Below, piece after piece: positions 12,075-50,809 of a stretch of 64,000 nt of DNA. Source of the stretch: Ochrobactrum sp. CGA5. GTDB taxonomy: Bacteria; Pseudomonadota; Alphaproteobacteria; Rhizobiales; Rhizobiaceae. The stretch covers positions 310,001 to 374,000 of the forward strand of contig NZ_VCIG01000001.1 in NCBI RefSeq assembly GCF_006345815.1. The letters are read 5' to 3'. Made by a program: the position numbers and the translations under genes. How positions within the stretch are numbered: the first letter of the stretch is position 1; each line of letters opens with the position of its first letter. Under the pieces are notes generated by a model that was not told the origin of the DNA, ran no database searches, and saw nothing but the letters and a program-made list of their open reading frames with translations.

Positions 12075-12092
12075 GGTCTTCTCCCTGTTTTA

Positions 12093-12193
12093 AGCATTTC
12101 CCGCAAAGTGCGAAGCGGCCTTGCGCAGGATAACGCGGCGAAACAAACACTTGGAGCGGTTTCGATAACTTAGGTTCAACGGGAAACGCTCTA
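12093..12193. repeat. Dispersed intergenic repeat, copy A
   Basis: It shares the order CCCG-AAAGTG-GAA-CGG, then about 20 variable bases, then AAACAAA and GAGCGG with the copies at 29054, 36594, 50722 and 63924. It ends in a partial inverted repeat (GAGCGGTTTC ... GAAACGCTC). Confidence 0.7.
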
Positions 12194-12366
12194 AGTACCG
12201 CATCATGGTATAAATGCAGGAAGCTCGCATGACCCTTATTTGTGAACAGGCTGTGGAACGGTGAAATGCGCCGCGAGAGTCTGGTTGAATTGGACCTGTA
12301 ATAAATGGCTGCTTTGTCGGAAGATATCCCACAAACATCAAGGTCTTTGCGCTACTTGAATAACTG

Positions 12367-12402
12367 GAGCGGTTCACTTGTACATAATGCAAGGAACCGC
12401 TC
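12367..12402. repeat. Long stem-loop with T-rich flank
   Basis: GAGCGGTTC-A-CTTG pairs with CAAG-GAACCGCTC (13 base pairs with one bulge, 9-base loop), followed on the plus strand by a T-rich stretch. It resembles a terminator for plus-strand transcription, yet no plus-strand gene precedes it. The GAGCGGTTC arm is also the tail of the dispersed repeat, so it may be a repeat remnant. Confidence 0.5.
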
Positions 12403-12598
12403 AGCCTTTTTGTTTTATACACTGTCCGGCACATTGAAGCCGGACAAACAATCAACCTGGCATTATGAATTATCCCAGATATTCATCGCACTTCTGACTC
12501 GAAAATGCGCTCTTTCGGGCATGCCGGATATTAAGAATCGAACACTACAGATCTTCTTTCAGCGATCAATGCAAAAGGATCTGTCTCGCCGGTGTCTT

Positions 12599-15500
12599 TT
12601 ATTGCCATTCGGCCGTGTCAAGAGCAACATTCTCGAGAATTAGTGACCAATTATTTCCGATATAATAATCAGATTCAAATGTGCCATCTCTGTACCCGGA
12701 AAGCATATCTTGGGGTATGTGGATGATGATATCATTTTTTCCTGATACGTCGGAAGGAAGGATATTATGCAAGTAAGGTATTGTATTTCCGATTATTTCT
12801 CCAGATTCACTTTCACCATTCAGATAAATCATCAAATTAATACAATCATAGGAGGTCCACGTTGATGAGTATGGAATGTAAATATCTAGTCCATAAACTA
12901 TACTGTTTCCATTTATTACATTCGCATAATTATTGAGATGTGGAGCGGGCAGAGTTCTGTTCGTATTATTATAGTCAGGATGATTTGATGTCGCGTTGCC
13001 TGTTACCGTCGGCACCACCGGTCTGCTTAGAACGGTGTTGGATGTCGTCGGATTTACAATCATGTAGGAAAAGAGATTGTACCCTTTCTGATCGGGGTCC
13101 GGATAAACGTGTGCATATGGAACTTCCACGCCGTCAAATATGGCTTCTTCGATAGATACAACTTGAACGTTTTCCTGTGCGGGGTTGCCTGGTGCGTTAG
13201 TGGAAATCCAGAACACTACATTCTGTCCCCGGAGATAGTTCTGGGGCTTTTGGATTTTTAACGTGAAGCCCGGATTGTTGACTGTGGGGCTATCGGGGAT
13301 GGCGATAGGATTGGGATTGAAAATTACCGGCATCAGGTTTTGATCGAAGTCGCCAGAATCAAATGTGGCAATAACGAAAGTATATTCAAAAGCGCCTGCC
13401 GAAGGGACGTTTTTGGGAGCGATTGAGATCGTGCCGCAGAACCGCGTCAGACTACCGATCTTGAGGGTAGCAAAACCGTTGCCATCCGTTTTTGTGGTAA
13501 TCGAGCCGGACGAATCGACCTGAACAGCTTTATTCTGCGAATCGAAGAACCGCAGGTCTGGCGTTCTCGGACTGAAATACCAGAGCACCTCCTTACCGGG
13601 TTGAGGAATGTTTTCGGACAGGTACCGGAAGGTGTACAATACGGTCTGACTATCGTCGGAAGGATCAACTCCGTTGCCTTCCGAAGGATTGTGAGCATAA
13701 TTCCTACCAATGAGGACCGAATAGTCCGGCAGGGCCACTTCATCATATTCATAGGTGAAATCACAATGCGCCAGAGCAAGTGGGGCATTGGCATCGAATT
13801 GTGCAAGTCCTGTGGTGGTACCTTTCACTGTGGCCGTCGCATAACCCTGGGCATCCGTCATAGGATCGAAATCCACAACGACGGCATCGTCTGAAGGCTC
13901 GTCCCAGGACATCGGATAATTGGCCAGCGCATGATCGAACTGGTTCGTCAGTTGCAATGTAACGACCGTCGTTTGATCGATGGGTAGGTGTGTGCCGCTC
14001 TTCGGTCCAATAAGCGTCAGGTTATTGTATAGACTGCTTTTGGTGAAGGTTAAGGTTTGTGTGGTCGATGTTCCATCGTCAGCAGTAACGGTTAGTTGCG
14101 TCGTGGCCGGCGTGGCTGGACGGCCTTTCAGTGTCTCATAGCGGATACGGTTATTTGACACCCCATATGAATCTGTTTTGGTGGTGGCGTTCTCCAATTC
14201 TGCGCCGTTGGTGCAGCTCCAGGTCAGTGTTGCGTTAGAAGCAGGCTGGCCGTTTTTTCCGGTAAGCTTTGCTTTTAAAGGCAGCCAGGTATCGTAGCGC
14301 ATATTCGCACTTGAGGGTGGGGTTATGATTATGGCTGCTAACGCCGTAAAGTTGAGCGGAATGTTGGTGGGGACAGTTACACCAGGGTTCTCCGCAACGA
14401 GCACGCCTGAATTGATGGCAGTGTCAGCCTTAACTGTGAAAGTGGCGATTCCTTCAGACGAAGTGCGCGGATTTTGGTCGCTGACGGTAATATCGTCACT
14501 GAGGGAAGTTACGGTCAGAATTTCCGAAGCTACAGGTTTTTGGTCAAGATCCGTCACTTTGACCTGAACTGTCACAGTGTCGCCGACAGCGAACGGGCCA
14601 GCGTTTGGCGGCGTTATCTGTGTAATCGTATTCGCATAAACTTGGTAGCTTCCGGTATAAAGTGCCCCTCCTGACGATGTGATTTTTACATCAACGGTCT
14701 CAACCGTTCCCTGAGGGATTCCCTTGTCTGTCAGAGTGCTCTTTGCCGTACCGTCAGTGCCCGTCCAGGACACAAATGGCTGAAAATCAGAGGAACGGCG
14801 GCTGGAGGATGCTATCCATTGAATGAGTTGGCCTTGCATTGGCGAACCCTTTTCATCCTGCAATGTCACGGAAAAGTCTATTCCGTTTGCAGCTGAAATC
14901 GGTCCGGTCTTGCTCGCATCGGGTTGGACGTCTGTGAACCGTTGTCCGCCGATTGTGAACGTTGGATAGTCGAAGGCCAGCGTGGCCCCTTCAGTGCTAC
15001 CGTCAAGGCTAACGCGTAGCTTTACCTCGCCGCTCATTCCATAGGGGACGTTATCAACCACTATCGTTGAAACGGCAATGCCGTCAGAGTCGGTTTTGCT
15101 CTTGGAAGGCGATATGTCTACCAGCGAGCTGTAGGACGTATCGTCGACCAATGACCACAGAATATCACAACCAGGAAATGGCGCGCCGTTCCCCCCAGTG
15201 TAAAGTGAACGAAGAGGGTATGTCACGCCCGGCTGCAAGACCGATCCATTGGGAGGCCAGAAATTGTTCACCTGCATCGTGGGGAGATCAATGGATTCAA
15301 TCGTAAGATATGAAGAATTTTTGAGGTCCTCATAAGATATTGACAGGGTAGATTTTCCGGATTCCTGGTATTTATTGGATGATGTCTGATATAAAAAATT
15401 ATTATGGAGTTTGGTTGATTTTGATATGTTGTTTATTGTGTCTTTTACTTGATAATTAATGCTATTGCCGTCATCAATTAAGTCTCCATTAGCATTAGCA

Positions 15501-15961
15501 TTTAAAAGATAAAATTGAGTTCCTGAAACTCCCTTTGATGTTATTTTCGTTTTTCCACTTGCGTCATTTCTTGGGAATACTGTCTGCAAAACAGGACCAT
15601 CTGTGACGGCTGGGGCTATGCTAGGGGCGCCGAAAATACAATCGATCTCAAGTTCTTCACCCGGTTCATCCTGTGGCCAGACAGCGAGGCGTATGGCCAC
15701 CTGTGCGTCGGGATCATCAAGCGGAACTTTGATATAGTTGATGCCTTCGCCTTTGCCGTTGGTCAGCGTGGTTGGCTGGCGAAGAACGGCCTCGCCTTCG
15801 ACAAGTCGCCATATAAGCCTGCGTTTGAATAAAGGCTGGTTGAGCTTATCCTTATAGCTGACCGCAAGCTCGACATACTCGTTCGGGGCCAGAGCAGCTC
15901 CGCGTTCTGTCGTTTTATAAGATAGAATATTGTTTTGTTGAGTAAGTATATCGTTACGCAT
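12599..15961 (-). CDS. Large Ig-like-repeat protein (invasin/Big_1-like), no signal peptide
   Basis: 1120 residues made almost wholly of beta-rich Ig-like units of about 100 residues. At least seven units can be traced by recurring L-T-x-x-G-x-P (LTGKNGQPASNATLTW, VTDLDQKPVASEILTV, VTLQDEKGSPMQGQLIQW) and T-D-x-x-G-x-A/S (TDSYGVS, TDAQGYATATV, TDGNGFATLKI) motifs typical of bacterial group 1 Ig/invasin domains. The last 130 or so residues resemble the C-terminal part of the neighbouring 372-residue protein. No signal peptide, membrane helix, LPXTG or barrel is seen. AAGGAA lies seven bases before the ATG. Parts of the gene, such as 15350-15560, are strongly A+T-rich. Function unknown; adhesin-like or secreted structural protein is inference. 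Confidence 0.8.
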   Translation of the reverse strand: MRNDILTQQNNILSYKTTERGAALAPNEYVELAVSYKDKLNQPLFKRRLIWRLVEGEAVLRQPTTLTNGKGEGINYIKVPLDDPDAQVAIRLAVWPQDEPGEELEIDCIFGAPSIAPAVTDGPVLQTVFPRNDASGKTKITSKGVSGTQFYLLNANANGDLIDDGNSINYQVKDTINNISKSTKLHNNFLYQTSSNKYQESGKSTLSISYEDLKNSSYLTIESIDLPTMQVNNFWPPNGSVLQPGVTYPLRSLYTGGNGAPFPGCDILWSLVDDTSYSSLVDISPSKSKTDSDGIAVSTIVVDNVPYGMSGEVKLRVSLDGSTEGATLAFDYPTFTIGGQRFTDVQPDASKTGPISAANGIDFSVTLQDEKGSPMQGQLIQWIASSSRRSSDFQPFVSWTGTDGTAKSTLTDKGIPQGTVETVDVKITSSGGALYTGSYQVYANTITQITPPNAGPFAVGDTVTVQVKVTDLDQKPVASEILTVTSLSDDITVSDQNPRTSSEGIATFTVKADTAINSGVLVAENPGVTVPTNIPLNFTALAAIIITPPSSANMRYDTWLPLKAKLTGKNGQPASNATLTWSCTNGAELENATTKTDSYGVSNNRIRYETLKGRPATPATTQLTVTADDGTSTTQTLTFTKSSLYNNLTLIGPKSGTHLPIDQTTVVTLQLTNQFDHALANYPMSWDEPSDDAVVVDFDPMTDAQGYATATVKGTTTGLAQFDANAPLALAHCDFTYEYDEVALPDYSVLIGRNYAHNPSEGNGVDPSDDSQTVLYTFRYLSENIPQPGKEVLWYFSPRTPDLRFFDSQNKAVQVDSSGSITTKTDGNGFATLKIGSLTRFCGTISIAPKNVPSAGAFEYTFVIATFDSGDFDQNLMPVIFNPNPIAIPDSPTVNNPGFTLKIQKPQNYLRGQNVVFWISTNAPGNPAQENVQVVSIEEAIFDGVEVPYAHVYPDPDQKGYNLFSYMIVNPTTSNTVLSRPVVPTVTGNATSNHPDYNNTNRTLPAPHLNNYANVINGNSIVYGLDIYIPYSSTWTSYDCINLMIYLNGESESGEIIGNTIPYLHNILPSDVSGKNDIIIHIPQDMLSGYRDGTFESDYYIGNNWSLILENVALDTAEWQ

Positions 15962-15995
15962 TATAATTTCCTTGAAATTGGATTAAAGTAGAAAT

Positions 15996-16019
15996 GGTGC
16001 CGACTTGTTCGTCGGCACC
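15996..16019 (-). terminator. Intercistronic hairpin between the two Ig-like genes
   Basis: GGTGCCGAC and GTCGGCACC form a perfect nine-pair stem with a six-base loop. On the minus strand it is followed only by ATTTCTACTTT, so it is a weak terminator at best; partial termination or mRNA stabilisation between the upstream 372-residue and downstream 1120-residue genes is likely. Confidence 0.55.
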
Positions 16020-16058
16020 GGTTCTTGAATAGATAAATTATTAAGGAAATAATCTTTA

Positions 16059-17177
16059 TCAGGTAGGGCCGACGGTGTTTATGCTTCCTGCGTAGTATTT
16101 TTTCGGCATTGCGTATGTATTGTTGCCAATTCTATGTTTCACGCTGTAATCAATGTAGATCGTTCCGGGGGTCCCGATCGCATTCATTCCAAACCCGACA
16201 AGTTTTTCTTTCGGAATTACTGCAGTTAATGGGGATTGGCTGGTGCTTCGGAAATTAATTACTCCTAATGTAAATATGGTATTGTTCGGGATGTTGCTGC
16301 CCTGAAACCATCCATTGATGTAGACTGTCACAGTAATGACGTCGCCGTCTTGTAGATGGTCTGGGTTGCCATCACAGTCGATATAAACGGTCACGTCACT
16401 TGAGGCGTCATTCAGGGTTGCGGCGTGATTTAACAGATATGGGCTTTCATTGAGGGTGCGCAAAGGTGATGCGGGAGGCCGCGTGATGATTTCGCCTTCT
16501 GTCGTGGCATAAGCCGTCACTGGCGAAATAGAGTCATTGCCGTTGATAATGGTATAACCGAACCGGTTCTGCGCATCTTCATGGAGCATATTGACGGGAA
16601 CCTGAAAGCCCTCATTGTAGATCGTGTTGAACGGACCGGATACGAATTGCGTTCCATTTATCAGCAAGGCGGCCTGCGCCCTCGGATACAGTTGGTAACT
16701 TGACGTAGTGTCGGGCAACAAGACAAGAATGTGTGTGCTGCTACCACCAAGCTGTATGATGCCGTCTTCATCCACCGGCAATAACGGAGGGCCGTATGTT
16801 GTGGTCAAACCCGAATAGGACGAGAAGAAGACTTCAGGCCCTACGTATCGACTGTCCGGATCATTCTCCACGACAAGACTGATTGAGGAAAGAGTTTTGG
16901 TTGGTGCGGCAAGATAGAAAGTGCACTTTCCGTCAGCGCCCACCTTAAGCACATAACCCTCATCCCCCCCGGCAACGGTGTTGTGGTCGCTGTCGATCAC
17001 GATCAAAGTAGAGGGGGATGTGAAAACTTGCAGGTTCGGATACGATGAGCCCGCCCCACCGCTTACTGTCACGTCCACCTTAATAAGTTTGTCAGGTTCT
17101 GAAGTGGTTGGCACGGCCCCCTTTCCGAATTCTGTAGCTAGAGTTTTGTTGAACACAGGTGAAATCGTATATGTCAT
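16059..17177 (-). CDS. Ig-like-domain protein, companion of the 1120-residue protein
   Basis: 372 residues, no signal peptide, no membrane segment, one Cys in each half. The N-terminal half has an Ig-like unit (VDVTVSGGAGSSYPNLQV, then GDEGYVLKVGADGKCTFYL). The C-terminal part (about 235-372) carries VTVYIDCDG, DGDVITVTVYINGW, a VIPKEKLVGFG segment and IYIDYSVKHRIG. This order parallels LDIYIPYSS, INLMIYLNGES and IHIPQDMLSGY near the end of the 1120-residue protein, so the two share a terminal module. AAGGAT precedes the ATG. It is upstream of that gene on the same strand and divergent from the autotransporter. No function assigned. Confidence 0.78.
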   Translation of the reverse strand: MTYTISPVFNKTLATEFGKGAVPTTSEPDKLIKVDVTVSGGAGSSYPNLQVFTSPSTLIVIDSDHNTVAGGDEGYVLKVGADGKCTFYLAAPTKTLSSISLVVENDPDSRYVGPEVFFSSYSGLTTTYGPPLLPVDEDGIIQLGGSSTHILVLLPDTTSSYQLYPRAQAALLINGTQFVSGPFNTIYNEGFQVPVNMLHEDAQNRFGYTIINGNDSISPVTAYATTEGEIITRPPASPLRTLNESPYLLNHAATLNDASSDVTVYIDCDGNPDHLQDGDVITVTVYINGWFQGSNIPNNTIFTLGVINFRSTSQSPLTAVIPKEKLVGFGMNAIGTPGTIYIDYSVKHRIGNNTYAMPKKYYAGSINTVGPT

Positions 17178-17503
17178 TGCAATATCCTTTGGGTTGTGAT
17201 GCCCAAGGAGGATGAGTGAAATGAAGCTTATGAACTACTGACAAATCTGACACGGTGATTGCGAATATAGAGCGGTACCGCTTCAAATCCTCGGTCGCGG
17301 GTTGGGCGTAGCATCACGCTATCTCCAGCAATCATCATTCGGGCTAAAGTCAGATTTCTGGGTTACGGTATTCGAGAAGCAGCATCCTCGGCGCGATACG
17401 TCATTTTTTGATCGACAGGTTTTGCCCGATACTAAATCAGTAACTAATTTAGTAAAGTATAGTTGAAATAAATATCGATTTATGTTGATTTTTAATAGTT
17501 TGT
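17178..17503. promoter_or_regulatory. Divergent A+T-rich promoter region of the Ig-like genes and the autotransporter
   Basis: 326 bases without a gene. The 100 bases before the autotransporter are very A+T-rich. TACTAAAT (17430-17437) and ATTTAGTA (17447-17454) form a perfect eight-base inverted repeat with nine-base spacer, a credible operator. No clear Shine-Dalgarno precedes the autotransporter ATG. Confidence 0.5.
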
Positions 17504-20500
17504 ATGAATAAATTTCACATCGAATTTCATTTTAAAAATTTATGGATCAAGTCATTGAAAAGCATTTCCTTTGAAAAGACGTGCGGATGCGCTGATTTCC
17601 GGTCATTTTTGTTGAGAACAACCTTATATTCACAGCTCGCTTTGGGTGCGCTTGTGGTTATTCCCGTGCCGCAAGCCGTTGCGCAGGCGCCACTTCATGG
17701 TGGCGATGGCGGCCTTGGCACCTGGGACCTATCATACCATTTTGAAGGTGCGGGTGGTGGGGTCGAGCAAGTTGGCGGAAACGCCAAAGGAAGCGTACTT
17801 GGTCGGTCCGGTACGCCTGTTATGAATCCTGGCGGTGGCGGTGGTGGCGCAGGGGGGGCTGCAGGGGGGAAAGGCCTTCAATGGCAAGGTTTGCCAAGTC
17901 AGGGCAAGGGCGGAGACGGTGGAGCGGGCGGCGCGCATGGTTATATCCTTGATGCCGCCGGAACGACATATTCGAATTCGACGTCCCTTGCGGGTTCTGA
18001 TGGTATGCGGGGGGAAGACGGTGCGGCCGGGACTGGTCCTGGAGATCTCTTTGGTGGCTCCGGTGGCGGCGGTGGTGCTGGCGGTTTTGGCCTTGTTGTT
18101 GATCAGGCGGGCAGCGTCGTCAATGATGTCGGCGCTACCATTGCGGGAGGGGCAGGTGGTGCTGGCGGCAACGGTGCCGATGAACTCATCAACGAACCTT
18201 ATGGCGGTGCGGGAGGCAATGGTGGTGCTGGCGGCATTGGCATTTATGTCCGCGACCCGGATCTTTCTATTACGAATAATGGAATAATTCGCGGTGGAGA
18301 AGGGGGGGCGGCAGGTGCGGCCGGTAAATCGCCCGCCGTGTATGGTCAACCGCTCCTTGCTCCGAATATTGGAGGAGACCCCGGTGCAGGCAGCTCAGCT
18401 ATAGCGATCGATACTACTGGCGCGTCTCCGGTAAATAGCACGCGGTCCTTGATCAACGGCGCGACAGGGGAAATTTATGGCGGTCGCGGCGGGGCCAGTG
18501 CTTCAGTGGCCGGTAGCGTAACCTCACTCATTCACGTTGACGGAGCCGATGGTGGTGACGGCGTATTGTTAGACGGAGGGATTGTCAACCAGGGCATCAT
18601 TCAGGGGGGGGACGGCAGTGCTGCAGGTGTTGGACCCGACGCTACTTTAACCGACAGCGTCACCGGGCTACCTTTGGTTTTCCAAGGAGCAAACGGCGGT
18701 TCTGGCGGGGATGGCATAGATTCGTATAATTGGGATTCCACGAAGACGACCAATAACAGCGGCACTGTGAAGGGGGGGCAGGGTGGAGCCGGTGGTGACG
18801 TTGCTGCACCAAGTGCGACTAACTCGGGCAACGGCGGCAACGGTGGTGGTGGTCTTATCATCCGCAACTCCGGGAGGCCGGGCACTCAAACGCTTATCAA
18901 TACGGGAACGATTATCGGTGGCGACGGTGGTGCTGGCGGACACGTTGCCAACACAGACCAAACAAACGGATCCGGCGGAAACGGTGGCAATGGCCTTTAC
19001 ATATTCGGTAATCTTATCAACAGCGGCACAATCCGGGCTGGGACCGGCGGTGCTGCGGGTAGCGGAATGGCTGGTAAGGATGGTTACGCAGTGGACATGT
19101 GGGGCGACGGCAGTATTCTGGAAATCCGCAGTGGTTCGAATATAGTCGGTACCGTAGTTGCTAATTCAAAGAACAACGTCTTTGCCCTCGGCGGTGATCA
19201 AGACGCAACCTTCTCGGGCACGTTGTCAACGACGTTTGACCATGCTTCTGATTACCAGGGGTTTAAGATATTCCGTAAATCGGGAGCCAGCACATGGACC
19301 CTTGCCGCATCCTACAATAATGACTGGCAGATACGAGGTGGCATCCTGGAAGTTGGTGACAAGGGCGCGATCGCCGATACCAGCACCATCGATACCGGTC
19401 TTGCAAATGACAAGGGTTATCTCGCCTTCAACCGTTCAGATACCGTGACTTTCGGCGGGACAATTACCGGTACGGGCGGTTTTAAACAACGCGGTGCGGG
19501 AGTTGTAACCCTGACTGGCAGCAACGATTACACCGGGGATACCGTCGTCGCAAACGGTACGCTTTCGGTTGCCAGCGAAGGTGCGATAGGCACCGGAGGT
19601 CTTGTGCTTTCGGGCGGTTATCTCCAAATTACCGGCACCGACTACACCGCGACCGGCAAGAGCGTCACGATAAGCAGCCAGAAAACCGGCTTCGACATTG
19701 CTGATAGTTCCAACAGCTTTACCGTTTCACAAGACATATCGGGTTCTGGAGAACTAACGAAAAAGGGAGCGGGCACTCTCGTTTTGACAGGGACGAAGAG
19801 CTACACCGGCGGTACGGTGATCGAAGCTGGTGACTTATGGCTGGGGGATGGCACAACGGATGGTTCCATAGCCGGCGACATTTCCATCGCATCACAAAGC
19901 AAGCTCTATGTTAAGAATACCAGCGCCTATACACTGGGCAGCGATATAAGCGGTGACGGCGGTATTGTGCAGGACGGTAGCGCAGTGCTGACCCTTACCG
20001 GCAACAATAAATATAAAGGTGGTACTCTACTCAACAGCGGGACTGTTTCGGTTCAACAGGAGGAGAATCTTGGCGATGCTGCCGGTGATCTGAACTTCTC
20101 CGGCGGAACGCTGCAGATTACCGGCACGGATTTCAACGGTACCGACCGAACAATCAACTGGGGTGCACAGGGTGGCCAGTTTGATATTGCCGATGCTGGT
20201 AATAGTTTCACGCTGGCAAATGAGTTTACCGGTTCAGGTGGTCTGACTAAGTCCGGTAAAGGTACGCTCGTGCTGACAGGCGATAGCAGTAGTTTTGCGG
20301 GCCTGACGAATATCAATGCGGGAAGCTTGCGCATGCATGGCGGATCGCTAGGTGACGGCACCGGCACAGTGAATGTCGCGAAGGACGCTTCGCTTGGTGG
20401 CTATGGCACCATTGGCGGGACGACTAATGTTGCTTCGGGCGGTACGTTGTTTGGCCGCAGCGGACAAGTACTCAATTTTTCAGGTGATCTGACCCTCAAT

Positions 20501-23254
20501 GCGGGCAGTAATGTCGATGTAACGCTTAACGGCGGACCATCGAACAATGAGATTTTCCACGTGGATGGTGGTCTGACTGTCGATGGTACATTGACGATCA
20601 ATCCGAACAGCAATGTGGATGTCGGTGTCTATCGTATTTTTCAGTCCGACAATGGCCTGACCGATAACGGCATGAGCTTGGCTCCGGGCAGCGACCCGGA
20701 TTATGGCTTGCAAGTGGTTCAACAGAGCGGCCAGATCAATCTTGTCAACTCAGGTAGTCGCAGTATGTCCTATTGGGACGGAACAACGCTGGTGGGCGAC
20801 GGAACGGTCCATGGCGGCGATGGGACATGGGATGGGAATACCAGCAACTGGACCCATATGGATGGCACCAACAATTTTCAATGGCCTGACGGTCAGTTCG
20901 CGATCTTTCAAGGCACGGGCGGTACAGTGCAGGTTGCAACAGGCTTCCAACCGAATGTCAGCGGGATGCAGTTCTTCGTTGATGGTTATACGATCAAGGA
21001 TGGCTCAATCACACTTGGTTCCGCGGACAACAGGATCATCGTCGGCGACGGTACTGCGCAAAGCGCCAGCTATGTGGCAACAATCGCTTCAGTGCTTGAC
21101 GGGGCAAACGGGTTCACAAAGTCAGGTTATGGCACGCTCAAACTGACCGGTAACAATACGTATAGCGGTACAACAACGGTGCAAGAGGGGACGCTCGAGC
21201 TAAGTGGCAACGGTGCCCTCAATGCTGGGTCCGAGATCGCGCTTGTCGGTACCCAGTTCGATCACGGACGTCTACTGATCAACAAGGACCAGGATTCTCA
21301 ACTTGCGAACCGTGTCAGTGGCGTCGGCGACGTGACCAAGGACGGCATTGGTGTTGTAACGTTTACCGGGGATAACACGTTCAGCGGTGGCTTGACGGTC
21401 AAGGCAGGTGCGGTAAAGGCCGGCATTGCCAACAATGCCTTCGGTTCAGGCAATGTCTCCATCATGGGTGGCGCCACGCTTGATCTGGCAAGCTTCAACG
21501 AAACAGTTGGCAATCTGATCGGTGACAAGTCAGGCGATGGAAATATCGACCTTGGCTCCGGTACGCTGACGCTCAATCAGAACTTGCACGGCGATTTTTC
21601 CGGTGTGATCACTGGCTCTGGCGGTATCAGCAAGAATGGCGATGGCGATCTGGTGTTCTATGGTCAGAACAATTATTCCGGTACAACAATGGTCAACCAA
21701 GGTGCTCTGGTGCAGGGCGCTGCAGGTGGGCTGTCGGCCAACTCCGTCTATAATGTGGCCGACGGGGCGCAAATTGAACTCGGAGGTTTTACCACCGATA
21801 TGGCAGGGCTTTCAAATGGGGGCGATGTCATATTCGGTGGAACCGGCGGAACAGTGCTGAATGTGCTCGGTGATTATGCCGGCAACGGCGGTACACTGAA
21901 AATGTCAGCGGTCTTGGGCGACGACAATTCGCTGACCGATCGAATGAATGTTAGTGGCAACACAACCGGCAACAGCCGGATCGCCATCACTAACCGTCGG
22001 GGCTTTGGCGGCCAGACGGGCAACGGTATTGAGATTATCTCGGTCGCTGGCAACTCGGATGGTACTTTCACACTCAACGGCGATTACACAACCAAAGACG
22101 GCAAACAGGCAATCATGACTGATTCGGCCTATGCCTATACACTGCAAAAGGGTGGTGCCGACACGCAGAATGACGGCAATTGGTATCTGGTCAGCCAGAA
22201 CGAGAAGTCCAGTTCCGCTCCTGATTCCGACTGCAACAGTACCAATAGCTGTCCAACACCACCATCGGGCCGTTACAGCGCTGCCGCTCCAGTCTATGAA
22301 TCCTATACCGCAACGTTGCAGGCTCTGAACAAACTCCCGACACTGCAGCAGCGCATCGGTGAGCGTTATTTGGGTCGAAACCATCAGACCGAGCTTGGCG
22401 AGACGGAGAGCAAGGCGATCTGGGGTCGTATCGAAGGAGCGCACAACCGCCAAGAAAACGGCTCTACGGCAGGCGATTTACACCAGGACATCAACACGTT
22501 CATCATGCAGGCGGGCGTCGATGGCCAGTTCTATGAGGATGAAAATGGCAAGCTGATTGCCGGTATAACTGGACAATACGGTAATGCCCATTCCAATATT
22601 GACAACCGAACAGGCGACGGTTCGGGCACCATAAACACGCAAGGATGGGGTCTTGGCGCGACGGCCACTTGGTACGGTTCTTCCGGTTTCTATCTCGATG
22701 CGCAGGCCCAGGCCAACTGGTATGATAGTGATCTTGGGGTCGATGCAGTCAATTCTACTCTCAAGAACGGCAACAAGGGGGTTGGCTATGCCATGAGCGT
22801 TGAAGCAGGGCGGCGCTTTGCTATCGACCCGAACTGGTCAATCACGCCACAGGCGCAGCTCATGTGGTCGTCGGTGGATTTCGATAGCTTCAACGATGCC
22901 TATGGCGCTCGTATCTCCAATCGCGATGGTGACAGCCTCTCAGCTCGGCTTGGCCTTGCAGCGAATTACACCAACAGCTTCACCGGCTCAGACGGACGGA
23001 TGGTCAATACATCGGTCTATGGCATAGCCAATCTCTATCAGGAGTTGATGGGTGATGCACGTTTGAACTATGCGGGCACACATATGGCGACCGACAGCGA
23101 TGGCACATGGGGAGGAATTGGCACTGGCGGCACCTATTCATGGGCAGACAATAAATACACCATCTACGGTGAAGGTTCCATCAACACATCACTTAACCAT
23201 TTCGCCGATAGCTATAACATCAAAGGGAATGTCGGTTTCAGGGTGAGATGGTAG
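17504..23254 (+). CDS. Large type V (AIDA-like) autotransporter adhesin
   Basis: Predicted outer-membrane autotransporter, 1916 residues. An extended signal peptide of about 60 residues (charged n-extension, hydrophobic core LALGALVVIPVP, cleavage near AVAQA) is followed by a glycine-rich zone to about residue 540 (many GGAGG and GGNGG runs). Then come at least seven passenger repeats of the type G-x-L-T-K-x-G-x-G-T-L-x-L-T-G-x-N-x-Y-x-G-x-T, which form beta-helical rungs. A C-terminal beta-barrel from about 1630 begins near SKAIWGRIEGA and ends with GFRVRW. Two Cys in SDCNSTNSCP precede the barrel. Poly-G tracts in the gly-rich coding region could cause phase variation. It ends at a strong terminator. 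Cargo role (adhesion, aggregation) is inferred from the family. Confidence 0.93.
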   Translation: MNKFHIEFHFKNLWIKSLKSISFEKTCGCADFRSFLLRTTLYSQLALGALVVIPVPQAVAQAPLHGGDGGLGTWDLSYHFEGAGGGVEQVGGNAKGSVLGRSGTPVMNPGGGGGGAGGAAGGKGLQWQGLPSQGKGGDGGAGGAHGYILDAAGTTYSNSTSLAGSDGMRGEDGAAGTGPGDLFGGSGGGGGAGGFGLVVDQAGSVVNDVGATIAGGAGGAGGNGADELINEPYGGAGGNGGAGGIGIYVRDPDLSITNNGIIRGGEGGAAGAAGKSPAVYGQPLLAPNIGGDPGAGSSAIAIDTTGASPVNSTRSLINGATGEIYGGRGGASASVAGSVTSLIHVDGADGGDGVLLDGGIVNQGIIQGGDGSAAGVGPDATLTDSVTGLPLVFQGANGGSGGDGIDSYNWDSTKTTNNSGTVKGGQGGAGGDVAAPSATNSGNGGNGGGGLIIRNSGRPGTQTLINTGTIIGGDGGAGGHVANTDQTNGSGGNGGNGLYIFGNLINSGTIRAGTGGAAGSGMAGKDGYAVDMWGDGSILEIRSGSNIVGTVVANSKNNVFALGGDQDATFSGTLSTTFDHASDYQGFKIFRKSGASTWTLAASYNNDWQIRGGILEVGDKGAIADTSTIDTGLANDKGYLAFNRSDTVTFGGTITGTGGFKQRGAGVVTLTGSNDYTGDTVVANGTLSVASEGAIGTGGLVLSGGYLQITGTDYTATGKSVTISSQKTGFDIADSSNSFTVSQDISGSGELTKKGAGTLVLTGTKSYTGGTVIEAGDLWLGDGTTDGSIAGDISIASQSKLYVKNTSAYTLGSDISGDGGIVQDGSAVLTLTGNNKYKGGTLLNSGTVSVQQEENLGDAAGDLNFSGGTLQITGTDFNGTDRTINWGAQGGQFDIADAGNSFTLANEFTGSGGLTKSGKGTLVLTGDSSSFAGLTNINAGSLRMHGGSLGDGTGTVNVAKDASLGGYGTIGGTTNVASGGTLFGRSGQVLNFSGDLTLNAGSNVDVTLNGGPSNNEIFHVDGGLTVDGTLTINPNSNVDVGVYRIFQSDNGLTDNGMSLAPGSDPDYGLQVVQQSGQINLVNSGSRSMSYWDGTTLVGDGTVHGGDGTWDGNTSNWTHMDGTNNFQWPDGQFAIFQGTGGTVQVATGFQPNVSGMQFFVDGYTIKDGSITLGSADNRIIVGDGTAQSASYVATIASVLDGANGFTKSGYGTLKLTGNNTYSGTTTVQEGTLELSGNGALNAGSEIALVGTQFDHGRLLINKDQDSQLANRVSGVGDVTKDGIGVVTFTGDNTFSGGLTVKAGAVKAGIANNAFGSGNVSIMGGATLDLASFNETVGNLIGDKSGDGNIDLGSGTLTLNQNLHGDFSGVITGSGGISKNGDGDLVFYGQNNYSGTTMVNQGALVQGAAGGLSANSVYNVADGAQIELGGFTTDMAGLSNGGDVIFGGTGGTVLNVLGDYAGNGGTLKMSAVLGDDNSLTDRMNVSGNTTGNSRIAITNRRGFGGQTGNGIEIISVAGNSDGTFTLNGDYTTKDGKQAIMTDSAYAYTLQKGGADTQNDGNWYLVSQNEKSSSAPDSDCNSTNSCPTPPSGRYSAAAPVYESYTATLQALNKLPTLQQRIGERYLGRNHQTELGETESKAIWGRIEGAHNRQENGSTAGDLHQDINTFIMQAGVDGQFYEDENGKLIAGITGQYGNAHSNIDNRTGDGSGTINTQGWGLGATATWYGSSGFYLDAQAQANWYDSDLGVDAVNSTLKNGNKGVGYAMSVEAGRRFAIDPNWSITPQAQLMWSSVDFDSFNDAYGARISNRDGDSLSARLGLAANYTNSFTGSDGRMVNTSVYGIANLYQELMGDARLNYAGTHMATDSDGTWGGIGTGGTYSWADNKYTIYGEGSINTSLNHFADSYNIKGNVGFRVRW

Positions 23255-23282
23255 TTTTCGACCATACCCTTTCGTAAACTTG

Positions 23283-23312
23283 AGCTCCCGGTCAACCGCC
23301 GGGAGCTTTTTC
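23283..23312 (+). terminator. Rho-independent terminator of the autotransporter gene
   Basis: AGCTCCCGG and CCGGGAGCT form a nine-pair GC-rich stem with a seven-base loop, followed by TTTTC, 28 bases after the stop codon. Confidence 0.9.
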
Positions 23313-23414
23313 ATTGTACCCTTTCGACCCCATGGTGGACGGCTGATTGGCCGATTATGCTGCCGACATTGATAGGAAGTTTGAAACATAACTTGGAGTG
23401 ACAATGTTACTCCG

Positions 23415-50721: not shown

Positions 50722-50809
50722 GAGCACTTCCAGCAAAAGCGTGAAACGGTCTTGCGCAGGAAAATGCAATGAAACAAATAGTTAGAGCGGCTCTGTCAAC
50801 TCTGACAGA
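50722..50809. repeat. Dispersed intergenic repeat, copy C
   Basis: GAGCACTTCC, AAAAGCGTGAAACGG, TCTTGCGCAGGA, GAAACAAA and TAGAGCGG, in the same order as the other copies, followed by a short hairpin (CTGTCAACTCTGACAG). It lies 23 bases upstream of the ispE start. Confidence 0.75.

Follow-up and report, generated by a model that had tools for sequence, protein, structure and literature searches.

Can proteins built of immunoglobulin (Ig)-like domains, with no recognisable signal peptide, belong to a surface structure together with the autotransporter encoded beside them? The question is raised by a 64,000-nucleotide stretch of Ochrobactrum sp. CGA5 (contig NZ_VCIG01000001.1, positions 310,001 to 374,000; hereafter the window), in which the genes for Ig1120 (1120 amino acids, aa) and Ig372 (372 aa) stand head-to-head with that for AT1916 (1916 aa), an autotransporter (AT; Table 1). 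The three genes lie in an insertion, both Ig proteins are intact open reading frames (ORFs) without a clear signal, they have in common a C-terminal Ig unit of ~370 aa (hereafter the module), and the module is linked to ATs at several genomic positions. We give slightly better than even chances to the reading that the trio is a horizontally moving surface-adhesion cassette, with the AT as its platform and the Ig chains as separate partners.

Three genes in one insertion

A preliminary description of the window had reported a signal-less Ig-like pair divergent from a type V autotransporter, and ORFs, domain scans and hydropathy bear this out. Ig1120 contains four Big_1 stretches and one MG4 match (Pfam), while no Pfam family matches Ig372 above cut-off. 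The AT1916 passenger has eight PATR stretches and an AC_1 autochaperone (Pfam), the C-terminal barrel corresponds to TIGR01414 (NCBIfam), and hydropathy alone places a hydrophobic segment of the signal type at residue ~45. With an N-terminal signal (by hydropathy), a PATR/autochaperone passenger and a C-terminal barrel on one chain, AT1916 fits the criteria of type Va. It carries 24 GGxGG words, and the richest 200-residue stretch begins at residue ~82. Pfam and NCBIfam scans found no POTRA/TpsB partner or TPS domain among the three island genes, and Pfam found no IAT_beta barrel in Ig1120.

Homology to Ig372 spans the last ~370 aa of Ig1120 (residues 744–1120). Profile A1, which does not include the Ig1120 module, matched that module with an E-value of 2.8e-21 (hmmsearch), and hhalign gave a probability of 98.6. 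The end of the module lies 0–10 residues from the C-terminus in all 11 longer proteins with strong matches; a long protein in genome G154 has only its first two thirds (G, C and L are our handles for genomes, contigs and loci). AlphaFold modelling of the Ig-like protein gave a poor predicted local distance difference test score, 43.6, from the single sequence and 60.3 with 7 sequences. This structural check, proposed in the preliminary description, returned matches that say Ig-like and nothing more specific; the N-terminal domain of the Ig372 model appears to match intimin. Searches of PHROGs, PADLOC, PDB sequences and Rfam gave no informative match; 'Cake' hits in one of them rest on 30 residues.

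Ten same-genus loci span the junction between aldehyde dehydrogenase and ada (L034–L043), and all ten lack the trio. There, window position ~12261 is joined to ~23413 with 0–19 bp between them, and the insert of ~11.15 kb therefore contains exactly the three genes. Outside this count are L044–L048, non-spanning loci that match the aldehyde dehydrogenase only, at 68–70%. The island is indeed A+T-richer than its surroundings (0.512 versus 0.567), as the sequence had first suggested, and the Ig genes are at 0.48–0.49. The codon analysis then recommended sets apart only two of the genes: among 33 long ORFs, Ig372 is the fourth and Ig1120 the eighth most deviant, whereas AT1916 falls outside the top twelve. 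No integrase or transposase gene was seen among the island's ORFs of at least 100 aa, and no target duplication of more than 6 bp was found at its ends. Separately, a dispersed repeat of ~110 bp (12091–12200) has entered the stretch from the aldehyde dehydrogenase gene to the old junction. Stretches of ~100 bp that resemble it occur many times in the genus, among the matches listed, and a 68-bp relative lies at window positions 50723–50790; the repeat has no match in Rfam.

Linkage of module and autotransporter

Each Ig gene is single-copy in the window's genome. Single-sequence searches returned only this copy from 151 family genomes, three of them of the genus. In 398 phylum genomes they yielded two weak matches and no others, both to the Big_1 region of Ig1120. 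Nothing was found in plasmids (tblastn, both Ig proteins), in phages (tblastn, Ig1120) or in a scan of genome contigs with Ig1120. We then surveyed 35 genomes of the genus by Ig-first single-sequence searches, with a profile search of part of them. Relatives of Ig1120 were identified in G151, G154, G156, G171 and G178, and relatives of Ig372 in G151, G154, G161 (Brucella pituitosa), G165 (Brucella rhizosphaerae), G171, G173 and G178; the window's genus is thus Brucella in its broad sense.

ORF maps and profile scans placed an AT within 7 kb at all ten module-bearing loci from these searches, namely the window's own and those in G151, G154, G156, G161, G165, G171, G173 and, twice, G178 (C8 and C43, the latter from the profile search). 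Judged by flanking ORFs, the ten loci represent seven distinct positions, as G154, G156, G171 and G178:C8 have common flanks and count as one. The loci are not fully independent, most carriers are draft genomes and several loci stop at contig ends; in G171 adjacency was deduced, the Ig genes being at the end of one contig and an AT at the start of another. The only module-less Ig gene, in G156:C12 (~157 kb, 750 aa), has no AT within its 16-kb stretch. In place of a chance rate, the control for linkage is the contrast with unlinked ATs, which were drawn non-exhaustively.

Searching 374 family genomes with profile A1 added G699 (Pseudochrobactrum kiredjianiae) and five genomes of genus g50. The array in G699 starts 1.7 kb from the end of the AT barrel. 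Among the g50 genomes, G719 has a same-strand AT ~0.26 kb after the array, and in G624 the AT lies 1.7 kb from the array, with intervening ORFs that we take to be transposase-like. The remaining g50 loci (two in G756, two in G050, one in G676) were counted neither way, since their contigs are short or break off nearby and show no AT. The expectation that the three genes travel together, on which the preliminary description had staked its own refutation, thus agrees with what is seen at differing genomic positions in three genera, and this co-travel lends partial support to its interpretation as a whole. Recurrence of relatives of the set at different places in three genera points to an undescribed multi-protein surface system.

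A wider profile, A6, added a single gamma-proteobacterial genome (G473) from 384 phylum genomes. Its contig C197 (L141/L143) encodes an inverse autotransporter with IAT_beta (2e-98), Big_1 and Invasin_D3, followed by four related Ig-type proteins of 547–624 aa; no other scanned locus has IAT_beta. The best array protein scored 32.9 bits with filters off and gave no match at default, and the match stops 108 residues before the C-terminus. A second contig has a 171-aa module fragment with no type Va barrel within 19 kb, in a scan that did not seek inverse barrels. We regard G473, weaker than the other cases, as a pointer and not as proof that the arrangement may be wider.

Approached from the other side, AT-type matches occur in all 35 genus genomes, among the matches listed. 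An AT-first census, in which ATs were picked regardless of Ig genes, covered 13 loci and 53 stretches. It was not exhaustive, omitting seven rows of G159 and G180 and some twenty others, for the most part partial barrel matches. No AT ORF emerged from L187, L188 or L191. ATs counted twice where stretches overlap were removed, as was a single 60-aa piece, and three ATs were not classed, being a 271-aa piece (own C36) or at contig ends (G178:C27 and G155:C70). At default HMMER filters, the module was near none of the ATs classed. Turning the filters off revealed two module arrays at new positions, G168:C24 and G166:C1, both divergent from glycine (Gly)-rich ATs. G168:C24 encodes a 568-aa protein (module E-value 5.4e-9) ending in ...NTINP and two more array-type genes. 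The 519-aa protein of G166:C1 has a weak module match (E-value 0.0011) and is similar to the G168 protein (E-value 6e-20); three more genes accompany it, and the next genes are alike in the two arrays. These finds raised our support for the cassette from even to just above. As default filters and the earlier searches miss distant members, G168 among them, counts of absence are upper limits, and module loci are present in at least 11 of the 35 genus genomes.

Of 79 ATs classed, 14 were linked to the module and 65 had no module in their stretch, some of these stretches stopping at contig ends. A Gly-rich tip (at least five GGxGG words, with pieces of split AT genes recounted) was present in 12 of the 14 linked ATs and in 11 of the 65 others (Fisher 1.7e-6). 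The rows of this test are not independent, as the linked ATs include four orthologues and Ig genes led to the choice of the first 12 linked rows. At default filters the count was 10/12 versus 13/67 (Fisher 3.6e-5), the census having added 50 ATs, 13 of them Gly-rich. It thereby ruled out a tip exclusive to linked ATs, as a first sample (10/12 versus 0/17) had suggested. Two ATs in G173:C79 (L094, L095), ~45 kb apart, are identical in their last 290 residues and differ in their passengers, which suggests barrel homogenisation or passenger exchange. GGxGG words number 11 in the AT adjoining the Ig genes, whereas its counterpart lacks them. Because of the enrichment and this pair, the tip seems a better docking candidate than the barrel, although the rule is loose.

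Linkage at multiple positions, seen from both sides, and a conserved module on variable chains argue for a functional partnership. Several observations weigh against it. The 65 unlinked ATs do without Ig genes, and with 11 of them Gly-rich and 2 of the 14 linked ATs lacking the tip, this feature is neither sufficient nor required. Linked ATs do not form one clade in the barrel tree, which did not count G166 and G168 among them: linkage requires seven changes, at least five of them forced by well-supported branches, and clustering is no better than in shuffles (96 of 500 as low). G155:C70 (L096 13003–18129) has a Gly-rich AT with 31 GGxGG words, its upstream side cut by the contig end, and single-sequence searches of the G155 genome gave no Ig match below an E-value of 0.25. 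Orientation also varies, Ig genes and AT being on the same strand in G151, G161, G699, G719 and G624. Finally, some members are broken. The Ig372 homologue is in two frames in G154 (L086 8857–10030) and split by a stop in G171 (L089 9415–10629), the long protein of G154 is damaged at its C-terminus, and the AT is in separate ORFs in G161 (L091 13386–19008) and in pieces at contig ends in G151.

Export and role of the Ig chains

Hydropathy, the only method applied here, showed neither a signal peptide nor a transmembrane segment in Ig1120 and Ig372. Only 19 and 7 codons separate the two starts from the previous in-frame stops, and a Shine-Dalgarno-like sequence is present at both, so it is very unlikely that a wrong start has hidden a signal peptide. 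In the first 45 residues of 43 partner-type proteins, the peak 11-residue hydropathy was at most 1.64. Over the first 75 residues it reached up to 2.15, one case being at residue 48, compared with 1.93–2.86 in six barrel proteins, ranges that nearly meet in a measure that is no replacement for a trained predictor. Six further partners were scored, including the 568-aa ORF of G168, which gave 2.21 at residue 32 from its first start and 0.93 from an internal ATG where the sequence resembles the Ig372 start. In total, 49 partner-type proteins have no clear signal peptide by hydropathy, with one start uncertain.

In the proposed cassette, the type Va AT would be the platform anchored in the outer membrane, and Ig1120 and Ig372 would be its separate partner chains. 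The C-terminal module of three Ig domains would most likely dock on the distal, usually Gly-rich passenger of the AT, or on another common surface receptor. In the long partner, the Big_1 repeats could serve as an arm of varying length that acts as spacer or binds a ligand. The Ig chains would be exported by a route needing no N-terminal Sec signal. We infer surface location, physical docking and such export of the Ig proteins; the domain types suggest adhesion as the function. The chains could cross the inner membrane through a type I exporter encoded elsewhere, be freed by lysis or take another path.

The Ig genes are not the only candidate cargo. YadA-head-type proteins adjoin them in G161 and G165 and, by similarity, in G699. 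In G178:C43 (L103 4895–19901), the array is extended by a 1675-aa RHS-core protein (TIGR03696) and Big_1-type proteins. Relatives of this RHS protein adjoin ATs without a module in G176:C48 (L149 4043–9484; 1813 aa, divergent) and G163:C2 (L206 11082–17657), and RHS proteins may be another cargo class. A bolder proposal, which we consider rather unlikely, is that type V barrels, classical in alpha- and inverse in gamma-proteobacteria, export or anchor Ig, YadA-head and RHS proteins without Sec signals in trans. Recognition would be by the three-Ig module and the Gly-rich tip, making this a branch of type V secretion that does without signal peptides and whose cargo arrays can be exchanged.

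It is similarly improbable that the Ig proteins leave through a type I or another signal-independent exporter that is not linked to them, with the module as secretion signal and the AT as a co-selected adhesin rather than a partner. The lack of a clear N-terminal signal would suit such a route, as would a common C-terminal module, which recalls the uncleaved C-terminal secretion signals mentioned in the accessible part of PMC7697752. However, the island, the only region inspected for them, has no ABC (ATP-binding cassette), membrane-fusion or TolC exporter genes, and a type Va AT is linked to the module at each family locus where the contig allows a view. Furthermore, GGxGxD (RTX) words are absent from both Ig1120 and Ig372; RTX repeats are not present in all type I adhesins.

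We think it less likely again that the Ig proteins are cytosolic, are freed by lysis like signal-less polymorphic or Tc-like proteins, and are then retained by the AT or another surface protein. The RHS proteins in the array and beside other ATs are in keeping with this, as is the lack of a dedicated exporter in the island. Against it, the window's island has no lysis genes either, and Big_1 and YadA-head content is generally known as typical of surface fibres. Least likely is coincidence, in which adhesin-type genes gather in the same insertion hot spots without joint function: it accommodates a mobile island, ATs in every genus genome among the matches listed and a module absent from most AT loci, but not the same pairing at differently flanked positions reached by Ig-first and AT-first searching alike, the lack of linkage in the sole module-less Ig gene, or a Gly-rich tip that tracks the pairing.

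Known systems and further features

The Salmonella ZirTSU proteins have reportedly been presented in the Journal of Biological Chemistry as a multiprotein immunoglobulin adhesion system. Among the zirTSU products of Salmonella (PMC6714894, in part), ZirT translocates ZirS (PMC2270342, in the portion available). An outer-membrane barrel protein can therefore serve a separate exoprotein, which provides a precedent for the AT/Ig partnership. Like the window, the available text of PMC2270342 has a type V-like barrel with an adjoining separate exoprotein gene in a horizontally acquired island. Unlike Ig1120 and Ig372, which have no clear signal and no room for one upstream, ZirS has a Sec signal with predicted cleavage at 24/25, and ZirT is of the intimin/invasin type, whereas the barrel of AT1916 is C-terminal and type Va. 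As far as these portions go, the inverse-autotransporter locus of G473 resembles ZirT-ZirS more closely than the window does.

Other likenesses are partial. With intimin/invasin (type Ve), the Ig proteins have Big_1 repeats in common and the putative intimin match noted above, but they lack the signal peptide and IAT beta-barrel. Brucella BmaA/B/C resemble AT1916 in signal peptide, PATR repeats and C-terminal barrel, whereas in the accessible text of PMC8111173 'Ig-like' occurs 0 times and Ig partner genes are unmentioned. BigA, BigB and PalA are Ig-domain adhesins from a genomic island of the same genus (PMC7697752, in part); BigA, however, is there an exposed outer-membrane protein. VARTIG of Thermococcales is a mobile module with one large and further Ig-domain proteins, but it is archaeal, many of its partner genes encode membrane proteins, and the part of PMC8416519 at hand does not mention a type V barrel. 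We found no description of this gene combination in open-licence papers. The earlier statement that no annotated system has it must be qualified by ZirT-ZirS, as far as its sources were available, as a close functional precedent.

Should the partnership hold, type V autotransporters would be scaffolds for swappable partner chains as well as self-sufficient adhesins, and a class of proteins likely to be annotated as cytosolic would belong to the surface, with an unfamiliar exit path. The module would then predict which signal-less proteins belong to the system and which autotransporters carry them.

Table 1. Features of the island (window coordinates) and YadA-head-type genes elsewhere (locus coordinates).
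Feature	Position	Strand	Basis
Inserted island, exactly three genes	12262..23412	.	empty-junction comparison
Ig1120: N-terminal ~114 aa conserved, then Big_1 repeats and the C-terminal module; signal peptide not evident	12599..15961	-	
Ig1120 C-terminal module, residues 744-1120, homologous to Ig372	12602..13732	-	hmmsearch, hhalign
Ig1120 conserved N-terminal region, residues 1-114	15620..15961	-	alignment A4; profile matches in relatives
Terminator-like perfect 9-bp hairpin between Ig372 and Ig1120, coding strand	15996..16019	-	
Ig372: the module by itself, probably of three Ig-like domains; signal peptide not evident	16059..17177	-	
Divergent intergenic region Ig372/AT1916, 326 bp	17178..17503	.	
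AT1916: type Va autotransporter; signal-type segment, Gly-rich tip, PATR repeats, autochaperone, barrel	17504..23254	+	
AT1916 Gly-rich distal passenger, residues 61-540	17684..19123	+	
AT1916 autochaperone/barrel region, residues 1447-1916	21842..23251	+	TIGR01414
Terminator-like hairpin behind AT1916	23282..23308	+	
YadA-head-type proteins without clear signal peptide	L091 9137-10858; L092 10285-11697; L124 5077-6372		

The hairpin at 15996–16019 may be an attenuator, through which the amounts of Ig372 and Ig1120 could differ; as the region contains 18 terminator-like sites where 11.6 would be expected, it is weak evidence alone. Among the ATs, G153:C10, G165:C11 and G161:C10 carry a near-identical barrel match (residues 1530–1916, 54%) with one internal TGA, perhaps a common broken gene.
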